From positions 1 through 49,374 of the forward strand of contig ONGJ01000014.1 of assembly GCA_900317375.1 (NCBI GenBank): a stretch of 49,374 bases of DNA, in the 5' to 3' direction. The notes under the pieces were generated by a model that had not been told where the DNA came from, did no database searches, and saw nothing but the letters and a program-made list of their open reading frames with translations. Positions 7,635-23,172 of this stretch are shown here, piece by piece (the stretch's first letter is position 1; each line of letters opens with the position of its first letter). The DNA is from an uncultured Eubacteriales bacterium (GTDB taxonomy: Bacteria; Bacillota; Clostridia; Oscillospirales; Oscillospiraceae). The translations under genes and the position numbers were made by a program.

Positions 7635-8783
7635 TTACATCAGGCTGCGGTAGAGGGCGGCGATCTCCTCGACGGAGGTGTCGCGGGGGTTGCCCGGGCA
7701 GCAGGCGTCGGCAAAGGCGCTCTCGGAGAGGAACTGCACGTCCTCGTCCTTGACGATCGCCTTGAGGTCGGCGGGGATGCCCACGTCGGCGCCCAGCTTT
7801 TTGACGGCGGCGATGGTGGCCCTGGCGGCCTCTTCGTCGTTCATGCTGTCGATATAGGGGACCTCCATGGCGCGGCCGATGGCGCGGTAGCGCTCGCCGG
7901 CGACGGGCATGTTGTACTCGAGGCCCAGGGGCAGCAGGATGGCGCAGGCGACGCCGTGGGGCGTGTCATACAGGGCGCTGAGGCCGTGGGCCATGGAGTG
8001 GACGATGCCGAGACCCACGTTGGAAAAGCCCATGCCGGCGATGTACTGGCCGAGAGCCATGCCCTCGCGGCCGCAGGCATCGTTCTCCACGGCGGCGCGC
8101 AGGTACTTGGCGATCAGGCGGATGGCCTCGAGATGGAACATGTCGGAGATGGCGCAGTGGCCCTTGGTGATATAGCCCTCGATGGCGTGGGTCAGGGCGT
8201 CCATACCGGTGGCGGCGGTGAGGGGCTTGGGCATGGAGTACATCATCTCGGGATCGACCACGGCGACCTCGGGGATGTCGTTGACGTCGACGCAGACGAA
8301 CTTCCGCTTCTTCTCGACGTCGGTGATGACATAGTTGATGGTGACCTCAGCAGCGGTGCCGGCGGTGGTGGGGACGGCGATGGTGAACACCGCGTGCTTC
8401 TTGGTGGGGGCCACGCCCTCAAGGGAGCGGACGTCGGCAAACTCGGGGTTGTTGATGATGATGCCGATGGCCTTGGAGGTGTCCATGACGGAGCCGCCGC
8501 CCACGGCGATGATGCAGTCAGCATTGAACTCCTGAAAAGCCTTGACGCCGTTCTGGACGTTCTCAATGGAGGGATTGGGCTTGATGTCGGTGAAGAAGGT
8601 GTAGGCAACGCCGATCTCGTCCAGCACGTCGGTGATCTTTTTGATCTCGCCGGACTTGACCACGTGGCGCCCGGAGGCGATGAAGGCGCGCTTGAAGCCG
8701 CGGCGGGAAAGCTCGCCGCCGATCTCTTTGACGGCACCGGCGCCGTGATAGGAAACAGGATTGAGTACGATGCGATTTGCCAT
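7635..8783 (-). CDS. fucO: Iron-containing alcohol dehydrogenase, lactaldehyde reductase type (FucO)
   Basis: A 382-residue group III alcohol dehydrogenase, near-collinear with E. coli FucO, which reduces L-lactaldehyde to 1,2-propanediol with NADH during anaerobic fucose or rhamnose breakdown. MANRIVLN opens as in FucO. The nucleotide site GGGSVMDTSKAIGI, the stretch NNPEFADVRSLEG and TTAGTAAEVTINYVITD are highly typical. The four iron ligands are Asp195, His199 (DALTHAIEGY), His262 (VHSMAH) and His276 (DTPHG), one residue offset from FucO. GGAGATCAGTTTC before the ATG at 8783 sets the start; an upstream in-frame extension lacks one. A promoter at 8935-8963 gives a leader of about 145 bases. 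No other fucose gene is adjacent, so another short-chain alcohol substrate is possible. Confidence 0.9.
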   Translation of the reverse strand: MANRIVLNPVSYHGAGAVKEIGGELSRRGFKRAFIASGRHVVKSGEIKKITDVLDEIGVAYTFFTDIKPNPSIENVQNGVKAFQEFNADCIIAVGGGSVMDTSKAIGIIINNPEFADVRSLEGVAPTKKHAVFTIAVPTTAGTAAEVTINYVITDVEKKRKFVCVDVNDIPEVAVVDPEMMYSMPKPLTAATGMDALTHAIEGYITKGHCAISDMFHLEAIRLIAKYLRAAVENDACGREGMALGQYIAGMGFSNVGLGIVHSMAHGLSALYDTPHGVACAILLPLGLEYNMPVAGERYRAIGRAMEVPYIDSMNDEEAARATIAAVKKLGADVGIPADLKAIVKDEDVQFLSESAFADACCPGNPRDTSVEEIAALYRSLM

Positions 8784-8934
8784 GAAACTGATCTCCTTTT
8801 CAAAATAAATGACCTGTCCAGACAGGCCGCGGGGCACCTGACAGCAGCACAGGCTTCCGACTCTCGCTTGGCTATGTTCCGTCGGTTCCTTCTCAAGCCG
8901 CCTGCCCGTTCTGTCAGTTCAGCCCTTCTAACAC

Positions 8935-8966: not shown

Positions 8967-9010
8967 AAAAAGGGCCCGGACAGGCTGAAAACAGCAGAGC
9001 CTGTCCGGGC
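8967..9010 (-). terminator. Terminator of the permease-GGDEF-EAL gene
   Basis: Stem of 13 bp: GCCCGGACAGGCT (8974-8986) with AGCCTGTCCGGGC (8998-9010), followed on the minus strand by CCTTTTTC, directly after the stop codon at 9019. Confidence 0.85.
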
Positions 9011-9018
9011 GGGCCGGA

Positions 9019-12000
9019 TCATGATTTCGGAGCGGTTTCTTCCTTTTTCACGCCGATGACGATGTGGTGGCGGTCGCTTTCGCGGGTGCGGATGGTCTGC
9101 AGCGTGTACGGCGTCGGGACACCGTTTTTCACTCTGCGGAAGGGCAGGGTGACGGATTCGTTCTGTTCCGCCAGGCGGATCAGGTTTGCCTTGCCGGTCG
9201 CCTCGCGAAGCGGCCCGGCATCGTCCTCGGCCACATCCTGCAGCAGGTTTTTGCGGGCACTGTCAAAGAAGTCGATCCCGCCGGGGTGGATCTCGAGTTT
9301 TCCGCCCTCGCCGGTAACAAACTCCAGATAAAAGTCTGTCAGCACGTCCACATAAAAGATACGCTCAAAATCGCCGGTCAGCGCCTCAGAAATGCTGACG
9401 GCGGTTTTTTCCGTTTTGGCGGTATGCGCGTCCGCCGCTTCCCCGGAGCGCTCGATCAGGAAGCGGTCAAAGGCCTCGGGCGGCACGGGCTTGGAGAAGT
9501 AATAGCCCTGCACCAGGTCGCAGCCCATGGCCTTGAGGACCAGGTACTGCTCCTCCGTTTCCACGCCCTCGGCCACGACGGGAACATGCAGGTAGTCCGC
9601 GATGTCGATGATCAGCTCGATCATGCGCACGTCCCGGGTTTTGCCGAAGGCGCTGCGCACAAAGCTCATATCCAGCTTCAGCGCGTCAATCGGGAGATGG
9701 GAGAGCATGCCCAGCGAGGAGTAGCCGGTCCCGAAGTCGTCCATCTCGATGCGGAAGCCCATGCCCACGCCGCGCAGCTCCTTGGCCGTGGTGATCACCT
9801 GATCGGCGTCCCCGGTATAGGCGGATTCCGTAATCTCGAGGACCAGATCCTCGGCATTCAGGCCGTAGGTCTCCAGGATCTCGGTGAAGATGTCCTTCAG
9901 ATTCGGCGTCAGCATGTCGATGCGCGAAACATTGACCGACACGGGCACGGAAAAGCCGAAGCGGTCCTTCCAGCTGCGGATCCGCGAGGCCGTCTCGCAC
10001 CAGACGAAACGGTCGAGGTCCAGGATCAGGCCGTTGTCCTCCAGCAGCGGGATGAAGACGCCCGGGCTGATCATGCCCAGCTCGGGATGATCCCAGCGGA
10101 CCAGGGCCTCAGCGCTGGCCAGGATGGGCTTTTCGGGCCGGATATCATACTTGGGCTGGAAGTAGACCATGAAGCGGCCGCTCTCCAGAGACGGCTTGAA
10201 GTCCTCCAGCAGGCGCTCGCGGTACAGCTCGGCCTCGTGCATCTCGGTATCGTAAATACCGATGGCCTTGCGGTAGCCGCTGCGGACCGAATTCGCGGCC
10301 GTCCGGGCATAGTCGAAGCGGCGTTCGATCTGCAGGGATTTGTCCACATTGGAGTACACGCCCATGCGGAGCCGCACGCGGTTTTCGGACACGTCCTCGT
10401 CCACAAGGCCCTCGGAGGCCTTGTCCAGAATGCTGCCGTAGTCCTCGCGGTGGGGGCAGTAGATGAGGAAGGTATCCGCCGCCCGGCGGCATCCCACGCC
10501 GCCGACCTCGCGCGAGATCTGACGCACGCGGCTGCCGATGCGCGCCAGCACGCTGTCGCCGTACTGCTTCCCGTAGCGCTCGTTGAGCATGTGGAAATGG
10601 TTGACATCCAGGACGATCGCGTCCATCGGCTTGTCGGCATAGTGCTGGTCGAACATGCGCACATAGCGCAGGAAATAATCGAGGTTAAAGAGGTTCGTCA
10701 GGCTGTCGCGCTCGGTGGACTGGATGATGTTGCGCTTTTCGGAGAGCTCGATGCAGCGGTTGATGCGCGCCCGGACGATCTCGACGGTGGGATAGGGCTT
10801 GGGGATGAAGTCAATCGCGCCGAGCCGCAGGCACTCGACCTCGGCGCTCTGGTCGGCGGTCATCACGATCACCGGGATATTCCGGAGCTCTTCCTCTTCC
10901 TTCATCACCTTCAGCACTTCCATGCCGCTCATTTTCGGCATCTGCAGATCCAGAAGCACCATGGCCAGATCGTCCCCGCTGCCCTTGATCTGCTCCAGCG
11001 CCTCGATGCCGTCGGAGGCATAGAGCACGTCGTATTCGTCTTCGAGCATATTGCCCAGCATCATCTGGTTGATGCGCTCGTCCTCCACGATGAGAATATG
11101 GTGCTTGAGGTGAAGGATGTCCGCGTTCTCATCATCCCGGAAGGCCGGCTTTGCGGCGAGCTCGGCATCCTCACGCGTGACGGCGCCCATGCCCTTCAGC
11201 AGCTTCTTCTCCTCATACATCAGGCCGTCTGCGCGTTCGAAAACGGGGTGAAAGCTTGTGTCCTCCCCGGGCCGGTATTCGGAAAGGCCGCCGGAGATGA
11301 CGACGTCCCCGGTGCTGATATGCTCGACGGAGCGGTCATGCAGGGCCAGGACCAGCTCCTTACGGATGAGATAGTCGCGTCCCCGCATGATCACCACGAA
11401 CTCGTCGCCGCCCGTTCTGTACACCGGGCTGTGCTGGAAGATATCGCAGATCATGCGGCTTGCCTTGCGAATGTGCTCATCGCCCGCCTTGTGGCCGAGG
11501 GTGTCGTTGATGACCTTGAGGCCGTTGACATCGCAGACCGCAACGGCAAAGTTCTCCGCCGTCTGGGCAGCGATGTCGGCATCCATCTGCTTTTCCTGCA
11601 GAAGGAAGGCATGCTTGCTCTTGACGCCGGTCAGGGGGTCGGTAAAGGCGACTGTCGTTGCCTCATCGCGCTCTTCCAGGGCTTTCTTTTCCCAGCGCTG
11701 CATGGAGATGTAGTTTGCCAGCATGACGGCGATGGCGAGGCCGAAAAGCGACGTGATGAGGATCAGACTCGTGTTGTCCGCGTCATGAATGCGGGAGAGC
11801 TCGTGCTCAAAGAAGGTATCCTCGTCCATGGCGAGGGTCTGTTCATCCGCGGTGCCGTCCACGTAGTTGTGGATCTCCTCCATGATGGCATTTTCCCTGC
11901 TCTCATTGAAGCGCTCGGCCCAGGTCGCGGAAAGCATGACGACGAAAGCCAGCAGGGCAATCCAGACGATGATGGCCTTGCCGAAGTTTCTGGAGTGATC

Positions 12001-13410
12001 CTTCCGGATGACGCCGTTGAAGAAAACCAGGCCGAGGATGGACCAGGCGATCAGGAGGGCATAGGTCTCCGTCTCGATGGTGTTGTCCGAGAAGATGCCG
12101 GGGAAGCCGAGATAGACCAGGAAGATCACCAGAATGACCATGCAGATGCCGCTAATGATGCGGTGCTTTCTGTCGTGCTCCTGTCCGGAGACCTTATAGA
12201 CGGCGGCGGAGGCAAAGCCGTAGAGGATGGTGGCGCCGAAGGTGGTGGTATCCACGATCCAGCCGATGGCCGTCCTGCCCAGGAAAGGAATGGGCAGCGA
12301 GATGAGCGTCACCAGCACGATGGTGTTGACGGGGATCTGTTTGTCATTGAGCTCGGTATAGCGCGCGGGGAGGATGCCGTCCTGCGCCGCAGCATAGCAG
12401 AGGCGGCTGAGCGTGCGCAGCATGCCGATCAGGCTGGTCAGAACCAGCGCCACCAGGGAGAGCATCAGGATGTTGACGCCGGTCCCGCCGAGATAGAAGT
12501 TCGCCGCATAGAAGGCGGGCAGGCCCGCGATGCCGTCGAACTCGTCCAAACGGCGGATATAGTCCAGCCAGCTGCTGCAGCCCTCGGGGTAGGCGGAGAC
12601 GCTCATCAGGACAATGAAGATGTACAGCGCGGTGATGACCGTCACCGAGATGACGAGGATGCGGAAGAGGCTGCTGTGCTTAAACCGATACTCCTCAGCG
12701 GAGTGGGACACGCTTTCAAAGCCGATAAAGGCCCAGGGCGAGATGAAGGCAATGCGTATCACCTGGCGCAGGGCGCCTTTGTCGGGGAGGAAGGCCGGCG
12801 CCATGCTCATGCCCGCGGAGGGGCGGCGCAGCATGGCAACAGCAAAGCAGAAGGTGATGCCGACCGTAAAGACCAGGACGAGGATCTCCATCAGGCGGGC
12901 GGTGGCCAGCTTGCTCTTCGCGCACAGCAGCGCCACCAGACCCATGACAATCAGCGTGACGGCCGCCTCGCCGGCATAGACCTCATAGCCGAAGATCGTG
13001 TAGAGATACCCGACCTTGAAGACCCCCCGGAGGAAATAGCGCGCAAAGAGCGGAACGCTGGTGGCGTTTGCCCAGAAAATGGAGATGTAGGTCAGGAACA
13101 TGAACCAGGCCGCGAGGAAGGCGCGGTCATAGCCGAAGACATGCTTGATATAGTTGTAAAGGCCGCCCGTGCCGGGATAGTGGTTGCCAAGGTAGTGATA
13201 GTGACTCGACACCATCAGCATCATGAGATAGCCGACCAGCAGGCCGAGGGTCGAGCCGAGGGGGCCTGCCTGGGAGAGATAGGTCCTGCTGGTGACGACC
13301 AGGGAGCCCCAGCCGATGGCCGAGCCCACAGACAGGGCCCAGACCGTCAGCGGAGAAAGATAGGGCTGCAGTTTTGTCTGCTGATTCACACCGGATGAAG
13401 GTTCTGACAT
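9019..13410 (-). CDS. APC-type permease fused to GGDEF-REC-GGDEF-EAL cyclic-di-GMP signalling domains
   Basis: One uninterrupted frame of 1463 residues. Residues 1-495 are an amino acid/polyamine (APC superfamily) permease with about 12 membrane segments; SVGSAIGWGS (27-36) is the family's unwound first-helix motif. Residues 498-548 form an outer loop and 549-567 a final membrane helix. A GGDEF domain follows (about 585-745), with intact TGGDEF at 666-671, so diguanylate cyclase activity is expected. Next is a receiver domain (771-888) with Asp821, Thr851 and Lys871. A second GGDEF domain (about 895-1055) is degenerate, RRAADTF at 975-981. The EAL phosphodiesterase domain (1065-1320) keeps EAL (1101), VNVS, EITES, DDFGTG (1224-1229), KLD and EGVET. 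The tail (1340-1455) is PAS-like. Transport or ligand binding may thus feed directly into cyclic-di-GMP control; that link is inferred. It is monocistronic, with its own terminator. Confidence 0.93.
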   Translation of the reverse strand: MSEPSSGVNQQTKLQPYLSPLTVWALSVGSAIGWGSLVVTSRTYLSQAGPLGSTLGLLVGYLMMLMVSSHYHYLGNHYPGTGGLYNYIKHVFGYDRAFLAAWFMFLTYISIFWANATSVPLFARYFLRGVFKVGYLYTIFGYEVYAGEAAVTLIVMGLVALLCAKSKLATARLMEILVLVFTVGITFCFAVAMLRRPSAGMSMAPAFLPDKGALRQVIRIAFISPWAFIGFESVSHSAEEYRFKHSSLFRILVISVTVITALYIFIVLMSVSAYPEGCSSWLDYIRRLDEFDGIAGLPAFYAANFYLGGTGVNILMLSLVALVLTSLIGMLRTLSRLCYAAAQDGILPARYTELNDKQIPVNTIVLVTLISLPIPFLGRTAIGWIVDTTTFGATILYGFASAAVYKVSGQEHDRKHRIISGICMVILVIFLVYLGFPGIFSDNTIETETYALLIAWSILGLVFFNGVIRKDHSRNFGKAIIVWIALLAFVVMLSATWAERFNESRENAIMEEIHNYVDGTADEQTLAMDEDTFFEHELSRIHDADNTSLILITSLFGLAIAVMLANYISMQRWEKKALEERDEATTVAFTDPLTGVKSKHAFLLQEKQMDADIAAQTAENFAVAVCDVNGLKVINDTLGHKAGDEHIRKASRMICDIFQHSPVYRTGGDEFVVIMRGRDYLIRKELVLALHDRSVEHISTGDVVISGGLSEYRPGEDTSFHPVFERADGLMYEEKKLLKGMGAVTREDAELAAKPAFRDDENADILHLKHHILIVEDERINQMMLGNMLEDEYDVLYASDGIEALEQIKGSGDDLAMVLLDLQMPKMSGMEVLKVMKEEEELRNIPVIVMTADQSAEVECLRLGAIDFIPKPYPTVEIVRARINRCIELSEKRNIIQSTERDSLTNLFNLDYFLRYVRMFDQHYADKPMDAIVLDVNHFHMLNERYGKQYGDSVLARIGSRVRQISREVGGVGCRRAADTFLIYCPHREDYGSILDKASEGLVDEDVSENRVRLRMGVYSNVDKSLQIERRFDYARTAANSVRSGYRKAIGIYDTEMHEAELYRERLLEDFKPSLESGRFMVYFQPKYDIRPEKPILASAEALVRWDHPELGMISPGVFIPLLEDNGLILDLDRFVWCETASRIRSWKDRFGFSVPVSVNVSRIDMLTPNLKDIFTEILETYGLNAEDLVLEITESAYTGDADQVITTAKELRGVGMGFRIEMDDFGTGYSSLGMLSHLPIDALKLDMSFVRSAFGKTRDVRMIELIIDIADYLHVPVVAEGVETEEQYLVLKAMGCDLVQGYYFSKPVPPEAFDRFLIERSGEAADAHTAKTEKTAVSISEALTGDFERIFYVDVLTDFYLEFVTGEGGKLEIHPGGIDFFDSARKNLLQDVAEDDAGPLREATGKANLIRLAEQNESVTLPFRRVKNGVPTPYTLQTIRTRESDRHHIVIGVKKEETAPKS

Positions 13411-13501
13411 GGTTCTCTCTCCTCACAGCGCCGCTCCTGCCGGCGGAAGCATCCCGGAGGCAGGGCGTCTGCGTTTTTGAATTTGCATTTTTATTTTATA
13501 T

Positions 13502-13593: not shown

Positions 13594-13665
13594 GGTGACA
13601 GGACAGGGAATATGATAAAAAGAGAGCATGCGGGCAGGCTTGGAAACGGAGGATGGGAACAGAGC

Positions 13666-14343
13666 ATGAGCGGAGTGGATTTTCGGGCGGTACACGCCGT
13701 GATCTTTGACATGGACGGCGTGATCTTTGACTCGGAAAGGCTGTATGTCGACTGCTGCTCGGAGGCAGCGGAGGGGCTCGGGATGGAAGGCATCGTCGAA
13801 ACCACCCTGCGCTGCATCGGGGTGAGGGCCGACGTGACCGATCAGATCCTGCTCGACGCCTATGGGGACAGGGCGCTCATCGACCGCTTTCAGGAAGCAG
13901 CCAGAGCCCTCTTTCTGGAGAAATACCGGGCGGGGCTGCTGGCCGTCAAGCCCGGGGTGCGGGAGCTGCTGGCTTATCTGAAGCGACGGGGAGCCGGGCT
14001 TGCCGTTGCCTCGTCCACCCGGACGGACATTGTGGAGAAGGAACTGGCGGATGCCGGCCTGCTCCCCTTCTTTGACCGGGTGGTGGGCGGCGATCAGGTC
14101 AGCCGGAGCAAGCCGCATCCGGATATCTTTCTGCGGGCGGCCGAGGCGCTTGGAGAGCAGGCAGAGCACTGTCTCGTGATCGAGGATTCCTTCAACGGGG
14201 TCCGTGCAGGCCGGGCGGCGGGCATGCAGGTAATCATGGTGCCGGACCTGCTGCAGCCGGACGGGGAGATGCGCTCGCTCGCCGGCGCGGTGGAACCCTC
14301 CCTGCTCCATGTACTGAAAAAAATGCAGAAAGAAAAAGCGTAA
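13666..14343 (+). CDS. HAD superfamily hydrolase, beta-phosphoglucomutase-like
   Basis: A 225-residue subfamily IA HAD phosphatase or mutase. Motif I is FDMDGVIFDSE, with the two catalytic aspartates; motif II is ASSTRTD; motif III is the lysine in SRSKPHPDIF; motif IV is VIEDSFNGVRAG. The helical cap lies between motifs I and II (about residues 20-90). The substrate cannot be told apart among sugar phosphates; the DxDGV followed by DSE pattern and the SRSKPHPDIF stretch fit beta-phosphoglucomutase-like and sugar-phosphatase members. The ATG at 13666 fits the family N-terminus, although its GGAGGA is about 12 bases away; an ATG at 13612 would add 18 unusual residues. The gene runs directly into a repeat element at its stop codon. 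Confidence 0.88.
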   Translation: MSGVDFRAVHAVIFDMDGVIFDSERLYVDCCSEAAEGLGMEGIVETTLRCIGVRADVTDQILLDAYGDRALIDRFQEAARALFLEKYRAGLLAVKPGVRELLAYLKRRGAGLAVASSTRTDIVEKELADAGLLPFFDRVVGGDQVSRSKPHPDIFLRAAEALGEQAEHCLVIEDSFNGVRAGRAAGMQVIMVPDLLQPDGEMRSLAGAVEPSLLHVLKKMQKEKA

Positions 14344-16890: not shown

Positions 16891-17829
16891 TCATTCTCTT
16901 CCTATGCCCGAGATTTCGGCCTGAAGACCGCTTTCCTCGAAAAGCTCTCGGATCGCCTCCACCCGCTCGGGGGGCGGGGCTTCGAAGCGCTCCTGCCGGC
17001 TGCCGATATGCCGGGCCTTGGAAACGCCCAGGCTGTGATAGGGCAGAAGCGTCACGCGCAGGATGCGATGCAGGCGGTAAAAGTCCGCCGTGCGGGCCAT
17101 CAGGTCGTCATCGTCGTTCAGACCGGCGATCAGGGGCATGCGCATGTGGAGCTTCGGGCGGGTCGTCTCGCGCTCGGCCAGCATGATCAGGTTCTCCAGA
17201 ATCCGATCATTGTCAAGGCCGGTGAGGGCGCGGTGGCGCTCGCGGTCGAGGCACTTCATGTCATAGAGGATATCGGTCACGTTCTCCATCTGCGCGAGCT
17301 GCAGGAGGGCAGACCCGTCACCGCAGCCGGAGGTATCCAGGCAGACGCGGATGCCGCTTTGCAGGGCGAGTTCCGTGAGGGCGAGGGCGAAGTCCGCATG
17401 CATCAGGAGCTCGCCGCCGCTTATGGTCATGCCGCCGCCGGTGTTTTCGTAAAAGGAAATGTCCCTGCAGACCTCGTGCATAACCGCCTCGGGCGTCATC
17501 TCTGTACCGACGGTGCGCAGGCCTTCGGCATAACAGCCCTCGACACAGCGCAGACAGAGGTCGCAGCGGCCGCGGTCGATGTCCGCCTCGCCGTCTTCGT
17601 TTACGAACATGGCCTCGCGGGGGCAGTGAGCGATGCAGTAGCCGCAGTGGATGCAGCTGTTGGGCATGCGGATGATCTGCCGCTCGGGAGAGATCAGCTC
17701 GGGGTTATGACACCATCGGCAGTGCAGGGGGCAGCCCTTGAGGAACACCGTGGTGCGGATGCCGGGGCCGTCGTCGGTGGAGAACTTCTGGATGCCGCCG
17801 ATGAGGGCGGTGCGTCCTGTGTCGCCCAT
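16891..17829 (-). CDS. Glycyl-radical enzyme activating enzyme (radical SAM)
   Basis: A 312-residue radical SAM activase of the PflA family. It would use S-adenosylmethionine and a [4Fe-4S] cluster to place a glycyl radical on its partner enzyme. The cluster motif is KGCPLHCRWCHNPE, with Cys33, Cys37 and Cys40. Two extra ferredoxin-type clusters follow in an insert (CIHCGYCIAHC and CDLCLRCVEGC, about residues 58-100), as in activases of the diol dehydratase, hydroxyproline dehydratase and decarboxylase groups. TGGGMTISGGELLMH is the SAM-binding GGE region. The ATG at 17829 lies six bases after the stop of the glycyl-radical enzyme, so the two genes are one operon and the specific pair is clear. 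Confidence 0.93.
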   Translation of the reverse strand: MGDTGRTALIGGIQKFSTDDGPGIRTTVFLKGCPLHCRWCHNPELISPERQIIRMPNSCIHCGYCIAHCPREAMFVNEDGEADIDRGRCDLCLRCVEGCYAEGLRTVGTEMTPEAVMHEVCRDISFYENTGGGMTISGGELLMHADFALALTELALQSGIRVCLDTSGCGDGSALLQLAQMENVTDILYDMKCLDRERHRALTGLDNDRILENLIMLAERETTRPKLHMRMPLIAGLNDDDDLMARTADFYRLHRILRVTLLPYHSLGVSKARHIGSRQERFEAPPPERVEAIRELFEESGLQAEISGIGRE

Positions 17830-17835
17830 GGCGCG

Positions 17836-20214
17836 TCAGACCGCCTCGCGGAAGTGGGCCGTGCGGTAGATGATCGAGTTCTGGGCATCGCGGTCCAGCT
17901 CGGTGAAGTAGGCCATGTAGCCGGCCACCCGGACCATCAGGCCGCGGTAGTTCTCGGGATGCTCCTGCGCCTTTCGCAGGGTCTCGTCGTCGACGACGTT
18001 GATCTGGATATGCTCGCCGCCGCACTGGAAGAAGGTGCGGATGACGCCCTCGATGGCCTGCAGGCCCTTCTCGCCGCTGACCCCCTGCGGGTCGAAGCGG
18101 ATGTTGAACAGGGCGCCGTCGTGGAAGTTCTCCATGCCGGTGGAGGCCACCGACTTGACCGTGGCGGTGGGGCCCTTGACATCGCGGCCCATCATGGGCG
18201 AGGCATTGTCGCAGAAGGCCTCGCCGGCCAGGCGACCGTCGGGCGTCGCGCCGCAGACCGCCCCGTGGGAGACGTTCACGGTCTGGGAGAGGTTCGAGAA
18301 GGAATAGGTGCCGCCGCGGGCATCCTTCCAGGTCTGGACATTCGAGGCGATGAACTGGATCATCTCGCGGTAGACAGCATCGGCGTGCTCGTCATCGTTG
18401 CCGAACTTGGCCGGCTTGTTGATGAGCAGCTGGCGGACGCGCTCGTCCCCCTCAAAGTTGCGGTCCAGAATGCGGATCAGCTCGTCCATGCTGAGGTCGT
18501 GATCCTCGTACACGCACTTTTCGATGGCCACCAGCGAGTCGGAGAGATTCGCCGCGCCCGTCACGAACATGCCGGCCGTGGTGTACTTCGCCCCGCCCTC
18601 CTGGACGGAACGGCCGGACTCGACGCAGCCCTTCGTCACCATGGAGGCGAAGATCACGGGGTAGCGCGTGGCGTGGTAAGGCTGCATGCGGTTGTAGCCG
18701 ATGCGGATCTTGTCGTAGAAAAAGAGCAGCTGCTTTTTGACTGCGTCCTTGAGCTCCTCAATGTTCCGGAAGCTCCGGGGGTCGCCGGTCTGCAGACCCA
18801 CGAGGTCGCCGGTGGCGGGGTCGACGCCGTTGTGCAGGGTGATCTCGAGCACCTTGGGGGCGTTGACATAGCCCGCGTCGGGCGAGCCGTCCGTCGTGCC
18901 GCCGCCCGGGCCGGGCTGGATGCAGCCGACGATGGTCCAGTCGCGCGCCTCTTCCATAGAGCAGCCCTTGCCCAGGGACATTTTCATGGCGGCTTCGTCG
19001 TTGAAGAAGCCGGGGTTGGCCATGCCCGCCTGCACCATCTCGCAGCCCTTGCGGATCAGCGCCTCGGGGGTGTTCTTCCAGACGCGGACGGCCAGCACAG
19101 GCTGGGTCGTCTGCATCTCGGAGGCGGCGTCCAGGCAGAGATAGCTCAGGTCGTTGGTGGCGTCCCGGCCGTCCGGGGTCTGGCCGCCGACGATGAGGAT
19201 CTGCCACATCGGGTAGCCGGCGAAGGAGGTGGCATACCAGTGGTCGCGCACCTCGTAGACCTCGCAGGCCTTCAGATAGAGGCACTCGAGCAGCTCCAGC
19301 GCCCGGCCGGCTTCGAGAGTCCGGTCGATGATGACGTCCTTCTTATAGAAGGGCCACAGGTACTGGTCAAAGCGGCCGAAGCCGCAGGCCGTGGTGCAGA
19401 CCTCGATGTGGAAGCAGACATGCACGAACCACACAAGCTGCAGCGCCTGCCAGAACGTCTGCGGCGGGTTTTCGGGGACGACACGGCAGTTTTCGGCGAT
19501 CTGGAGAAGCTCGGCGCGGCGTGCGGGATTTTCGCAGGCCGCCGCCTGGTGCTCGGCCTCCTCCGCCATGCGGTGGGCATAGGCGATGAGGCCCTCGCAC
19601 TGGATGATGCAGGCGTTCCAGAAGTCGATTTTCCTCTGGTCGTCCGCGCTCATGCTTTGGGTCGAGGCGATGCGGGCACGGCACTCGTCCATATAGCCGC
19701 GCAGGCCGACCCGCAGCAGCTTTTCATGGTCGCAGGTGGTCTCGCCCGAAACGCCGTTGCGAAGGCCGACCGAGATGATGTCCTCGCGCCGGGCCTTTTC
19801 GATGTCCGGGGGCAGGACGCGGCCGGCCTCGTCCTCCATGGAGCGGCCGATCCAGTACTCGTTGAGGATGCGGACGATCTGCTCGCGGTCCTCCGGCGCA
19901 ATGTCGTAGGGGTCGCACTTTCTGACGGGAAACTCGTCGATATCGTGCAGATAGAATTTCTCGGCCGACTGGAACTCGGGATGGAGATTCGCGCCGCGGT
20001 AGCGGTTGGTGGGCGTGCCGACAATCAGCTCATCCTCCATGATGAGGGTGGTCATATGCTCCAGGATGTAGCGGACCACCTCCGCCCGGAACACCGGGGC
20101 GGCGTCGCCGGCAAAGCGTTTGTAGGCCTCGGTCTGCAGGACCAGCCGTTCGGCGGTGATGCAGGGCCGCGAGGCGAAGTACTTTTCTCTCATTCTGCGA
20201 ACTCTGTCGGTCAT
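17836..20214 (-). CDS. Glycyl-radical enzyme of unassigned substrate (PFL-like, divergent active site)
   Basis: A 792-residue enzyme with both halves of the PFL/PflD family. The glycyl loop MVRVAGYMAYFTEL carries the radical Gly765. The active-site cysteine is C431 in WTIVGCIQPGPGGGT. In glycerol/propanediol dehydratase, choline lyase and hydroxyproline dehydratase the motif is Cys-x-Glu; here the glutamate is Gln433. Upstream, the usual Gly-His-Thr before the DxxK motif reads SGETTCDHEK, so the catalytic-type histidine appears to be Glu158. The adjacent activase with extra ferredoxin clusters fits a dehydratase, lyase or decarboxylase rather than true pyruvate formate-lyase, which has Cys-Cys. 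The start is set by AAGGAG six bases before ATG. A repeat element fills its 5' region, with the aldo/keto reductase gene upstream. The substrate is unknown. Confidence 0.9.
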   Translation of the reverse strand: MTDRVRRMREKYFASRPCITAERLVLQTEAYKRFAGDAAPVFRAEVVRYILEHMTTLIMEDELIVGTPTNRYRGANLHPEFQSAEKFYLHDIDEFPVRKCDPYDIAPEDREQIVRILNEYWIGRSMEDEAGRVLPPDIEKARREDIISVGLRNGVSGETTCDHEKLLRVGLRGYMDECRARIASTQSMSADDQRKIDFWNACIIQCEGLIAYAHRMAEEAEHQAAACENPARRAELLQIAENCRVVPENPPQTFWQALQLVWFVHVCFHIEVCTTACGFGRFDQYLWPFYKKDVIIDRTLEAGRALELLECLYLKACEVYEVRDHWYATSFAGYPMWQILIVGGQTPDGRDATNDLSYLCLDAASEMQTTQPVLAVRVWKNTPEALIRKGCEMVQAGMANPGFFNDEAAMKMSLGKGCSMEEARDWTIVGCIQPGPGGGTTDGSPDAGYVNAPKVLEITLHNGVDPATGDLVGLQTGDPRSFRNIEELKDAVKKQLLFFYDKIRIGYNRMQPYHATRYPVIFASMVTKGCVESGRSVQEGGAKYTTAGMFVTGAANLSDSLVAIEKCVYEDHDLSMDELIRILDRNFEGDERVRQLLINKPAKFGNDDEHADAVYREMIQFIASNVQTWKDARGGTYSFSNLSQTVNVSHGAVCGATPDGRLAGEAFCDNASPMMGRDVKGPTATVKSVASTGMENFHDGALFNIRFDPQGVSGEKGLQAIEGVIRTFFQCGGEHIQINVVDDETLRKAQEHPENYRGLMVRVAGYMAYFTELDRDAQNSIIYRTAHFREAV

Positions 20215-20234
20215 GGTAATCTCCTTTATGATAG

Positions 20235-20401
20235 CTCCCAATCAGTCTGTGCCGTTTCGCGGCAAAAGAAGGGTTCTGCCCCTGTCGTCAGTACTGCGGC
20301 CGCGAATAGGTTTTTTGGGCGAAATCGTCTCCCCCGCTTCTGCGCGGCGCAGAAAGCTGTAGGCGAGAGCTCAGTTCCTCTTCCGCGCAGCGGCAGAAGG
20401 C
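20235..20401 (-). repeat. Interspersed structured repeat, copy 3 (modules A and B)
   Basis: Read on the minus strand, module A (20401-20342) has TTCTGCCGCTGCGCGGAA, then CTGAGCTCTCGCCT and GCGCCGCGC; it matches the copy at 38848-38905 closely. Module B (20303-20235) begins GCGGCCGCAGT and ends AGACTGATTGGGAG, matching 14377-14442. Module order is A then B, the reverse of copy 1, and no terminal inverted repeat is visible. The element lies between the reductase stop and the ribosome binding site of the glycyl-radical enzyme, so it is probably in their shared transcript. Confidence 0.7.
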
Positions 20402-21314: not shown

Positions 21315-22871
21315 TCAGGCAGCAGCCTCGGCTTCGTCGCCGGTGCCGTACTTCTTTACGGCGGCGCGGTGCAGCACGATCATGGCCGCAACCAGCAGGA
21401 CAGCCGAAACAACCAGACCGATGATGCCGTTGCCGGTGATGCCGATGAGGATGTAGCCCACCAGGCTGCAGGCCGCAATCGTCAGGGCATAGGGCATCTG
21501 GCTGCCGACGTGGTCGAGGTGGTTGCAGCTGGCGCCGGTGCTGGAAAGAATGGTGGTGTCAGAGATGGGCGAGCAGTGGTCACCGAAGATGGAGCCGGCC
21601 AGCGTAGCGGCCAGGGCGGCAACGGTCAGGTTCGGGGCGATGGCCTGCGCAACCGGAGCAACGATGGGGAGCAGAATGCCGAAGGTACCCCAGGAGGTGC
21701 CGGTAGAGAAGCTCAGGAAGGCCGCGAAGATAAAGACAATCATCGGGAGAATCGCGCCGGGAACGCCGATGGTCTGGAACAGGTTGCTGACATATTCCGG
21801 CGTACCGAGCAGCTCGCGGCAGACACCGCCGATGGCCCAGGCCAGAAGCAGGATGACGCCGGCGGTGATCATCGGCTCCATGCCCTTGACGACGCCCTGG
21901 AAGAACTCATGGAAGCTCATGATCTTACGGGGGACGTAGAGCAGCAGCGAGAAGAGAATCGCCGCGAAGGAGCCCCAGGTCAGGGCCTGGCCCGAAACGC
22001 TGTTGCCGAGGGAGGGTCCGAAGAGGCCGGCGACGGAGGGATCGTCGCTCCAGAATCCGCCGATATACATCATGGCGAGAATCGACACGACAACCAGCAC
22101 GAGAATCGGGAGAACCATGTCCCAGAGCGTCGCGTTGGACGGGGTTTCCATGCTCTCGTAATCCTGATCTGCGGCCGCCGAGAGGTCGCCCCTGCGCGCC
22201 TTGAGCTCAAAGCGGTACATCGGGCCGAAGTCCCACGAGAAGACGCAGATGAGAATCACCATCAGCAGGCAGAGCAGGGCGTACAGATTATACGGCACCA
22301 TGGCCATAAAGCCGCTGATGCCCGAGCTGAACACGCCCGTGTCGACCATGTAGCCGCCGACCGCGGCGCCCCAGGTCGAAATAGGGACCAGAATGCAGAT
22401 CGGGGCGGAGGTCGAGTCGATCAGGTAGGCCAGCTTCGGACGGCTGACGCGGTAGCGGTCGGAGACCGGCTTCATGACCGAGCCCACCGTCAGGGCGTTA
22501 AAGTAGTCGTCGATGAAGATCAGGCAGCCCAGCAGGGTGGTCAGCAGGGTCGACTGGGTCTTGCTGCGGATGACCTTGGAGGCCCAGCGGCCGTAGGCCT
22601 TGGCGCCGCCGGAGGCGTTGATGAGATAGACCAGCGAGCCGAGCAGGAAGCAGAACAGCATGATGTACCAGTCCGCACGCCCGAGGATCAGCTCGAACAT
22701 GACATTGACCGGCGCCACGACCGGGTTCAGCCCTGCGGCGCTGGCATAGATGATGGTCCCGGACAGAACACCGGCCACCAGAGAGAAGACGACCTCCTTG
22801 GTGATCAGGGCCAGTACGATCGCCACAACGGGCGGCAGCAGAGACCATGCGCCAACGTAAACAGATTCCAT
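21315..22871 (-). CDS. NhaC-family antiporter, probably a lysine transporter (LysW-like)
   Basis: A 518-residue membrane protein with about 12-13 helices. It belongs to the NhaC/ArsB ion-transporter superfamily: GCLIFIDDYFNALTVGSVMK, DSTSAPICILVPISTWGA, STGTSWGTFGILLPI and GDHCSPISDTTILSSTGA are all typical. NhaC-type genes behind lysine riboswitches are considered lysine transporters, and this one has such a riboswitch with a terminator directly upstream (22911-23172). High lysine should therefore stop transcription before the gene. The start MESVYVG is preferred; the longer frame runs back into the terminator hairpin. AAGGATG lies 12 bases upstream. Downstream genes (aldo/keto reductase and perhaps the glycyl-radical pair) may share this control. 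Confidence 0.88.
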   Translation of the reverse strand: MESVYVGAWSLLPPVVAIVLALITKEVVFSLVAGVLSGTIIYASAAGLNPVVAPVNVMFELILGRADWYIMLFCFLLGSLVYLINASGGAKAYGRWASKVIRSKTQSTLLTTLLGCLIFIDDYFNALTVGSVMKPVSDRYRVSRPKLAYLIDSTSAPICILVPISTWGAAVGGYMVDTGVFSSGISGFMAMVPYNLYALLCLLMVILICVFSWDFGPMYRFELKARRGDLSAAADQDYESMETPSNATLWDMVLPILVLVVVSILAMMYIGGFWSDDPSVAGLFGPSLGNSVSGQALTWGSFAAILFSLLLYVPRKIMSFHEFFQGVVKGMEPMITAGVILLLAWAIGGVCRELLGTPEYVSNLFQTIGVPGAILPMIVFIFAAFLSFSTGTSWGTFGILLPIVAPVAQAIAPNLTVAALAATLAGSIFGDHCSPISDTTILSSTGASCNHLDHVGSQMPYALTIAACSLVGYILIGITGNGIIGLVVSAVLLVAAMIVLHRAAVKKYGTGDEAEAAA

Positions 22872-22910
22872 AATTTTGCCACATCCTTTTCTGATTGATT
22901 GCTTTCTCTG

Positions 22911-22947
22911 AAAACAAAAGCAGCCGGTTGCGCGTCGCACCGGCTGC
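22911..22947 (-). terminator. Riboswitch expression-platform terminator
   Basis: Stem arms GCAGCCGGT (22920-22928) and ACCGGCTGC (22939-22947), extended inward by TGCG/CGCA; on the minus strand CTTTTGTTTTC follows. It lies between the lysine aptamer and the transporter start. Confidence 0.85.
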
Positions 22948-22992
22948 CTCAAAGATCATCTGACAGATACAGGGATGAAAACAGAACCCTGT

Positions 22993-23172
22993 CCGTAATA
23001 ATGAGCTCTCCGCAAAAGATGCGACAGTCATATGCATCTTCTGCATATGCCCAGGCCGGATTTACGCCTCATCCGCCTTCGGCGTATGCCCCTTTCCTTC
23101 GGCCGGGGATTGCTGGTCCCCTCGCTGCGGCCTCGGTACTCTTGACAATACGCGCCTCTACTTTTATTACGG
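22993..23172 (-). promoter_or_regulatory. Lysine riboswitch (L-box aptamer)
   Basis: On the minus strand, P1 is closed by CCGTAATAA (23172-23164) and TTATTACGG (23001-22993). Inside, AGAGGCGCG followed by AAGAGTA matches the conserved 5' core of the L-box and its loop-E-like turn. GGCCGAAGG and CGCCGAAGGCGG give the next helices; then CTGGGCATATGCAGAAG and ACTGTCGCATC, with GGAGAGCTC closing, follow the order known from the B. subtilis lysC leader. The length of about 180 bases is typical. Transcription would start at or next to the P1 strand. A terminator follows, so ligand binding should switch the gene off. Confidence 0.9.

Follow-up and report, generated by a model that had tools for sequence, protein, structure and literature searches.

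Location and domain organization

The stretch of DNA analysed here (the window; 49,374 nucleotides, contig ONGJ01000014.1 of assembly GCA_900317375.1) comes from an uncultured Eubacteriales bacterium of the family Oscillospiraceae. Its minus strand carries a gene of 1463 uninterrupted codons (ATG at 13410, stop at 9019), in which an APC-superfamily transporter module is joined to GGDEF, receiver (REC), GGDEF and EAL domains. An earlier note on this DNA had described such a single-frame fusion, which the open reading frame and the Pfam matches bear out, with the orientation now corrected to the minus strand. The gene and its features are as follows (TM, transmembrane helix).

9019-13410, minus strand: whole gene, 1463 aa, with the order APC, TM13/TM14 hairpin, GGDEF, REC, degenerate GGDEF, EAL, PAS-like (open reading frame, Pfam, relatives)
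13417-13424, minus strand: sequence resembling a ribosome-binding site, GAGGAGAG, 6 nt 5′ of the ATG (sequence inspection)
12004-13359, minus strand: APC-superfamily (LeuT-fold) module, residues 18-469 (Pfam, local hidden Markov model, AlphaFold2 model, Foldseek, mapping onto GkApcT)
Within 12004-13359, minus strand: gate residues of the APC module, W34, W226, E232, H236, M330 and R336 (mapping onto GkApcT)
11647-11976, minus strand: TM13 (479-517), a short outer turn and TM14 as a single helix to residue 588, forming an outer hairpin and signalling helix (AlphaFold2 model, linker lengths)
11203-11649, minus strand: GGDEF 1, residues 588-736, active site intact, RxxD inhibitory site absent (Pfam, relatives)
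10771-11097, minus strand: receiver, residues 772-880, with E776/D777, phospho-acceptor D821, T851 and K871 (Pfam, relatives)
10288-10710, minus strand: GGDEF 2, degenerate (RRAADTF) (profile matches, relatives)
9487-10203, minus strand: EAL phosphodiesterase domain, residues 1070-1308, catalytic residues retained (Pfam, relatives)
9022-9441, minus strand: PAS-like C-terminal domain, residues 1324-1463, without a Pfam family (model and structure search)
8974-9010, minus strand: 13-bp hairpin and U run just 3′ of the stop (fold z -3.2; 2 of 200 shuffles as stable)

In the Pfam scan AA_permease_2 matches residues 18-459 with 96.3 bits (cut-off 27) and covers profile positions 1-422 of 427. GGDEF (588-736, plus the second GGDEF stretch), Response_reg (772-880) and EAL (1070-1308) are likewise all above cut-off. 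The domains listed in the earlier note are present; the PAS-like domain at about 1324-1463 had been overlooked there. These C-terminal residues (approximately 140), for which the Pfam scan yields no family, are modelled confidently (pLDDT, a per-residue model confidence, 88.7). Against solved structures the domain gives weak matches (best E-value 7e-4; two at 0.001 or better), and as the 50 matches are mostly PAS, LOV, PYP or Cache structures, with a few pilus ATPases, it is named PAS-like here. In other proteins its homologs are found N-terminal to a kinase or a GGDEF domain, and some GGDEF and kinase proteins of these genomes have as many as four copies of it (L089 4113-7640, L182, L185 and L218).

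The hairpin at 8974-9010 is likely an intrinsic terminator between the fusion gene and an alcohol dehydrogenase gene; a stricter terminator pattern scan, allowing a loop of at most 8, does not list it. A plus-strand open frame of 1444 codons (9064-13398) lies antisense over nearly the entire fusion gene, probably as a side effect of the GC-rich codon usage. Since the opposite strand of this GC-rich DNA is open for such a length, frame length alone is weak evidence for a gene; the fusion gene is established by homology to its relatives.

Relatives and distribution

A scan of contigs showed that 152 of 168 candidate stretches encode a relative. The best 80 of the 152 were retained for comparison, and most of these match the window protein almost end to end, with identities of 52-79%. 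By their titles all 80 are metagenome-assembled or uncultured, and many titles mention sheep, goat or deer gut or the RUG series, which we take to be rumen genomes; the taxon labels disagree with one another. Local domain mapping gave 82 frames, from which L099 and L142 were dropped as truncated duplicates (of the window and L187, respectively), leaving 80 distinct APC-GGDEF-REC-GGDEF-EAL frames including that of the window, 79 of them longer than 1250 aa. The same domain order is therefore found at 79 other loci, as the earlier note had proposed looking for.

To gauge frequency, sampled genomes were searched with A1, a profile built on the APC-hairpin module, at an E-value of 1e-60, the genus and family samples being searched at the looser 1e-40. 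The samples overlap partly and each contains the genome of the window; as the number of candidates scored was capped in several of them, the counts are lower bounds. Any A1 match, stand-alone permeases included, was found in at least 9 of 299 genomes of the phylum, 14 of 391 of the class, 12 of 197 of the order, 28 of 61 of the genus and 14 of 150 of the family. Matches in fusions, tallied as frames of 690 aa or more, were found in at least 3 of 299, 7 of 391, 8 of 197, 16 of 61 and 7 of 150 genomes respectively. The description of such proteins as rare in the earlier note thus suits the phylum but not the genus.

Catalytic and receiver residues

Residue conservation was counted over 79 aligned fused proteins, including that of the window. 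In GGDEF 1 the metal-binding D627 as well as G668, D669, E670 and F671 are present in all 79 and G667 in 78. The RxxD product-inhibition site is absent from this domain, residues 659-662 being QHSP, with H660, S661 and P662 present in all 79. For EAL, what we take to be the catalytic set (E, N, E, D, D, K, E, Q) is retained, with E1101, N1160, E1192, D1224 and D1225 in 79 of 79 and K1245, E1281 and Q1301 in 78 of 79 (one gap). The receiver has the set assumed here to be required (an acidic pair, the phospho-Asp, T/S and K): D777, D821, T851 and K871 occur in all 79 proteins, and E776 is present in the window protein. GGDEF 2 deviates from the motif, with D979 and F981 retained in the 79 proteins. 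The earlier note was right about the position of the phospho-acceptor D821, the GGDEF motif (667-671), the degenerate RRAADTF sequence (975-981) and the motifs of EAL. From the residues kept in GGDEF 1 and EAL, the protein is predicted to be bifunctional, with both cyclase and phosphodiesterase activity.

The APC module and its gate

An AlphaFold2 model built with 46 aligned rows (pLDDT 85.5; pTM, the predicted TM-score, 0.85) displays the LeuT-type breaks in TM1 and TM6, which the DSSP assignment places at residues 32-34 (TM1) and 229-232 (TM6). Top Foldseek matches are structures of LAT, AdiC, GkApcT, BasC and ApcT, with target TM-scores of about 0.7-0.8 (for LAT, most entries), while CAT1 and CAT4 score lower (0.52-0.69). 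Among 46 fused rows, which are as little as 27% identical to the window protein, 45 columns of the permease core are invariant.

Aligned with GkApcT, E232 corresponds to Asp237, H236 to Thr241, M330 to Met321, R336 to Arg327, W34 to Thr43 and W226 to Phe231. In GkApcT, Asp237 and Glu115 are reported to join in the intracellular gate and an alanine mutant of Asp237 to be non-functional (PMC5803215). The TM6 aspartate conserved in SLC7-type transporters is replaced in the window protein by E232, and this residue is glutamate in 115 of 116 fused rows and in none of 40 stand-alone rows, of which 35 have aspartate. Further differences between fused and stand-alone rows are P235 (0 of 116 against 40 of 40), Q236 (1 of 116 against 38 of 40), F330 (2 of 116 against 39 of 40) and D95 (116 of 116 against 0 of 40). 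The intracellular gate has thus undergone remodelling on the branch that separates fused from stand-alone modules, and, this being a single branch, the differences represent one historical event. The presence of E232 lowers the likelihood of a working SLC7-type transporter and not that of an APC fold.

Other positions are common to both groups. W34 is present in 34 of the 40 stand-alone rows, and the TM1/TM6 glycines, R336, R379 and D387 are retained in nearly all rows, fused or stand-alone. Glu115 and Lys191 of GkApcT align with T107 and F181 of the window protein. The loss of proton-coupling residues was considered as a mark of a receptor and rejected, the 40 stand-alone rows also having no acidic residue at Glu115 and no lysine at Lys191.

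Linkers and signal path

The earlier note had placed an outer loop and one extra helix after the permease. The loop is seen in the AlphaFold2 model, but there are two helices (479-517 and 530-588), and the second, TM14, continues into the cytoplasm as one helix up to GGDEF 1. Linker lengths following TM14 are quantised. In 115 distinct rows (122 with copies; 2 of 124 eligible frames were unreadable), the distance from a fixed point in TM14 to DxLT of the cyclase is 33 (67 rows) or 26 (18 rows) and that to the kinase histidine is 42 (29 rows) or 49 (one row), with no other length among these rows; at least three changes of length are required on the tree. Coiled-coil-controlled diguanylate cyclases are described as having linkers mostly in steps of seven (PMC8041772, PMC9587094), with a large -4 group also reported (PMC9587094). 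The steps of seven found here are as would be expected for a signalling coiled coil. Further along the protein, the distance from the receiver KP to DxLT of GGDEF 2 is 31 in all 71 readable fused rows (of 79), and also in 22 of 23 rows that are not led by APC.

Interchangeable outputs

Across the loci, 146 distinct APC domains were collected, near-copies retained, and the module was observed with several different outputs, exemplars of which were confirmed with Pfam. It is joined to GGDEF-REC-GGDEF-EAL, with or without the PAS-like end, in 75 cases with a sufficiently long APC part; to GGDEF alone in 12 distinct cases and to PAS-GGDEF in one; to a kinase with zero to two receivers in 32 and to a PAS-kinase in three; and to HD-GYP in two. 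In a further 20 rows there is APC only (these are stand-alone permeases, with a small number of broken fusions among them), and another row is cut after PAS. The HD-GYP-like fusions (L194 957-3323 and L201 3438-5819; Pfam HD_5) constitute a phosphodiesterase-only version. The reverse swap occurs too, L084 and L085 having GGDEF-REC-GGDEF-EAL frames without APC, with that of L085 led by PAS-like repeats.

The genome of the window itself codes for two more members. Contig 50 has a single frame of 1437 codons with the order APC-hairpin-PAS-(PAS-like)-HisKA-HATPase-REC-REC. Contig 161 (L087 13224-16408) has an APC-kinase-REC-REC that is broken, the permease being encoded in one frame and the kinase in another that overlaps it, which is either a draft sequencing error or a decaying gene; this locus adjoins a REC-GGDEF-EAL gene and a histidine kinase-REC gene. 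This 3.1-Mb genome contains 46 GGDEF and 18 EAL matches, a heavy cyclic-di-GMP apparatus for a gut-dwelling relative of Clostridium.

The main tree comprised 55 APC domains (38 fused and 17 stand-alone; IQ-TREE quick run, SH-aLRT branch support) and was rooted on the permeases, a root chosen by us. Fused and stand-alone domains are separated by a 100% branch. With this root a kinase group diverges first, and the cyclic-di-GMP outputs fall in one nested set (support 99, 24 rows) that also contains two PAS-kinases, while the two HD-GYP fusions are placed apart. The labels stand-alone, kinase and cyclic-di-GMP require at least four changes, three of them beyond the split from the permeases. The picture is the same in a FastTree built from 137 rows, in which the fused set is less well supported (81). 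The REC-GGDEF-EAL halves of the fused proteins make up one clade (99), sister to stand-alone REC-GGDEF-EAL genes; with outgroups they are nested among such genes, and the fused halves together with two rows that are cut fused or APC-less have a support of 100.

A history with a single fusion of an APC-GGDEF gene to its neighbour was considered and rejected, as the APC-GGDEF proteins L188, L199 and L217 lie inside the APC clade of the window and the neighbour of L199 belongs to the other REC-GGDEF-EAL clade. Later losses or exchanges must therefore have occurred.

Neighbouring genes

Split versions of the fusion are found as neighbours. In L199 an APC-GGDEF frame lies 14 bp from a REC-GGDEF-EAL frame and in L235 another lies 66 bp from a REC-GGDEF-EAL-GGDEF frame. 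In the fetched regions, and counting fused neighbours, a same-strand gene containing REC-GGDEF-EAL lies within 800 bp of 13 of 30 APC-kinases and 3 of 11 APC-GGDEF genes; this is the case for 0 of 18 stand-alone permease frames. L179 has an array of histidine kinase-REC, REC-GGDEF-EAL, APC-kinase, APC-GGDEF-REC-GGDEF-EAL and APC-GGDEF genes, which is partially present in L180, L181 and L234. Stand-alone permeases of the same subfamily also occur as a tandem pair and a triplet (L219 and L221), with GWG or GFG in TM1 and GF(D/G)xIPQ in TM6.

The earlier note had stated that no histidine kinase lies nearby. This stands for the window, where local kinase models gave no match anywhere, but not in general: when the 42 fused genes flanked on each side by 3 kb or more of sequence are considered (that of the window is one of them), a kinase domain lies within 6 kb of 17 and an APC-kinase within 6 kb of five. 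The APC-kinase of L055, whose open frame overlaps the fused frame by 4 bases, is not counted among these five.

Next to the fusion gene are an iron alcohol dehydrogenase (7635-8837) and a HAD hydrolase (13612-14343), with a glycyl-radical enzyme further away (17836-20241). A functional link with these genes was considered, for which there is no evidence; the terminator-like hairpin separates the dehydrogenase, and conservation of the neighbours in relatives was not looked at. The glycyl-radical enzyme (PFL-like) is accompanied by its radical-SAM activase, the two together occupying 16891-20241 on the minus strand. Riboswitch control of the fusion gene was also rejected, since with Rfam gathering scores only a lysine riboswitch and a tRNA were found in the window, both elsewhere, and in 11 related loci Rfam found one cobalamin riboswitch and none at the fusion gene. 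The lysine riboswitch (22995-23168, minus strand, 75.7 bits) is upstream of a gene of the Na+/H+-antiporter family (21315-22952, minus strand), whose product may therefore transport lysine.

Comparison with known systems

CbrA is described as a rare transceptor (PMC13022988). In CbrA and CrbS (SLC5-STAC-histidine kinase; Pseudomonas and Vibrio), as in the window protein, a transporter is fused through helices to a cytoplasmic signalling part (PMC13022988, PMC8871633, PMC5715377), and nutrient sensing by a single polypeptide is what is predicted for the window protein also. However, these proteins have an SLC5 and not an APC fold, a STAC linker and a kinase output, and the Pfam scan of the window protein found AA_permease_2 and no SSF or STAC. 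The Kuenenia ammonium transporter-histidine kinase KsAmt5 is likewise reported as a transporter fold turned sensor, which binds without efficient translocation and is fused to a kinase (PMC8534201), but it has the Amt fold and a kinase output. Ssy1 resembles the proposed role as a dedicated receptor derived from an amino acid transporter (PMC12958826); it differs in being eukaryotic and in signalling via partner proteins without a fused enzyme. A further link between a transporter and a receptor is the subject of PMC11109136.

On the output side, cyclases of the DgcR, WspR and PadC type share the control of GGDEF by an input via a coiled coil, the length of which varies mostly by multiples of seven residues; they differ in having receiver or phytochrome inputs, and PadCs also include the -4 group (PMC8041772, PMC9587094). 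GkApcT (5oqt), a CAT-family APC transporter, has the fold in common and a weak sequence match (E-value 5e-7), but is stand-alone and proton-coupled, with D237 at the gate where the window protein has E232. PvrR-like REC-EAL and REC-GGDEF-EAL phosphodiesterases resemble the second half of the protein, although their receiver is not attached to a transporter, and the PvrR match from NCBIfam is far below its cut-off. Stand-alone REC-GGDEF-EAL genes of the same clade adjoin APC-kinases. Among the matches listed in a search of open full-text literature by titles and abstract starts, with subscription journals mostly outside it, no APC-GGDEF, APC-EAL or APC-kinase fusion was found. The APC-GGDEF-REC-GGDEF-EAL architecture may well be listed in domain databases.

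Proposed function

With its swapping among outputs through heptad-spaced linkers, the APC module resembles the input of a transceptor or receptor. The suggestion in the earlier note that the protein is a transceptor is supported to this extent, the APC part appearing to evolve like an input module. We consider it likely, at about two chances in three, that the protein is a membrane receptor which controls cyclic-di-GMP through a converted APC-family sensor, its GGDEF being set through a coiled coil and its EAL through receiver phosphorylation. A small nutrient, which we infer to be most likely an amino acid or amine, would bind the LeuT-fold pocket and shift the gate helices, and this shift would travel along TM13 and, by way of the outer hairpin, along TM14 to a parallel coiled coil, the register of which would determine how active the cyclase domain GGDEF 1 is. 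Asp821 would be phosphorylated separately by a histidine kinase, for which a sister APC-kinase is the probable candidate, and the receiver would then use its own linker of 31 residues to act on GGDEF 2 (degenerate) and on the EAL phosphodiesterase. A single molecule would in this manner balance a nutrient that it senses directly against a signal from a phosphorelay, and make or destroy cyclic-di-GMP. In such a receptor transport would have been lost or slowed.

Several observations weigh against this. One ancient event may underlie both the differences at the gate and the single branch, which would then not be independent evidence, the change from D to E is conservative, and there are near-copies among the 40 stand-alone rows. 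Because the LeuT core is complete and the GWG motif of TM1 is common to most stand-alone permeases, transport may persist. With an APC-kinase close to only five of the 42 well-flanked fused genes and none in the window, the kinase partner of Asp821 is put forward here as a candidate; moreover, kinases with other sensors also adjoin these genes, and REC-GGDEF-EAL neighbours fall short of a majority among APC-kinases (13 of 30) and APC-GGDEF genes (3 of 11).

A considerably less probable explanation, which in part overlaps with the favoured one and retains an appreciable chance, is that the protein is a true transceptor whose APC part still transports and in which turnover rather than occupancy drives the cyclase or kinase, as proposed for CbrA. 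The confidently modelled LeuT fold, its similarity to AdiC, most LAT entries and GkApcT, and the near-universal retention of the TM1/TM6 glycines, R336, R379 and D387 would suit continued transport, while the systematic change at the positions aligned with D237, T241 and M321 of GkApcT argues against it; T107 and F181, at Glu115 and Lys191, do not distinguish the groups as stand-alone rows also lack Glu and Lys. It is improbable that regulation runs in reverse, with phosphorylation or nucleotide binding by the cytoplasmic half gating a working permease as its output. The solved APC-fold KimA with cyclic-di-AMP is among the Foldseek matches and GGDEF and EAL could serve as binding domains, but the catalytic residues are retained in 78-79 of 79 proteins, the kinase and HD-GYP swaps on the same module suit an input role, and heptad linkers are typical of transfer from sensor to enzyme. 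We regard as equally improbable that the APC part is a membrane anchor only, all regulation coming from cytoplasmic signals together with the receiver and the PAS-like domain; although the enzyme halves of L084 and L085 exist without APC, neither 45 invariant core columns at identities down to 27% nor a linker length held to heptads would be expected of an anchor. An assembly chimaera or a frameshift at the junction (11650-11900), raised in the earlier note, has a negligible probability and is rejected: the window does come from a draft genome of 161 contigs, but the junction is in one frame at 79 other loci with distinct frames of the same domain order, and most of the best 80 of the 152 relatives span it.

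For the favoured reading, a receptor with a converted APC sensor, a wider and more tentative extension to which we give slightly less than even weight is that in gut Clostridia the APC fold has evolved into a general-purpose receptor domain compatible with the major classes of bacterial output (hybrid kinases, GGDEF, EAL and HD-GYP). In the arrays of neighbouring genes, kinase and cyclic-di-GMP enzyme would then have sensors of one kind, and the window protein would be a dual-input switch in which the nutrient controls synthesis and a phosphorelay from a sister receptor controls breakdown. The APC-hairpin module is probably a plug-in nutrient sensor that helps cells to switch lifestyle.

The APC-GGDEF-REC-GGDEF-EAL protein is a real, conserved architecture within a modular receptor-like family, and extends transporter-derived receptors to a new combination of fold and output. 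There are few examples of how transporters become receptors, each known here with one output, whereas in this family a single lineage has permeases that stand alone, fusions to kinases and to cyclases, and a fusion that is bifunctional. The small set of gate residues that separates the transporters from the fused modules makes such a conversion testable by swaps of residues and outputs. To our knowledge, the inputs to cyclic-di-GMP in rumen and gut bacteria are largely unknown, and this family would supply a direct link in them from nutrient to cyclic-di-GMP.

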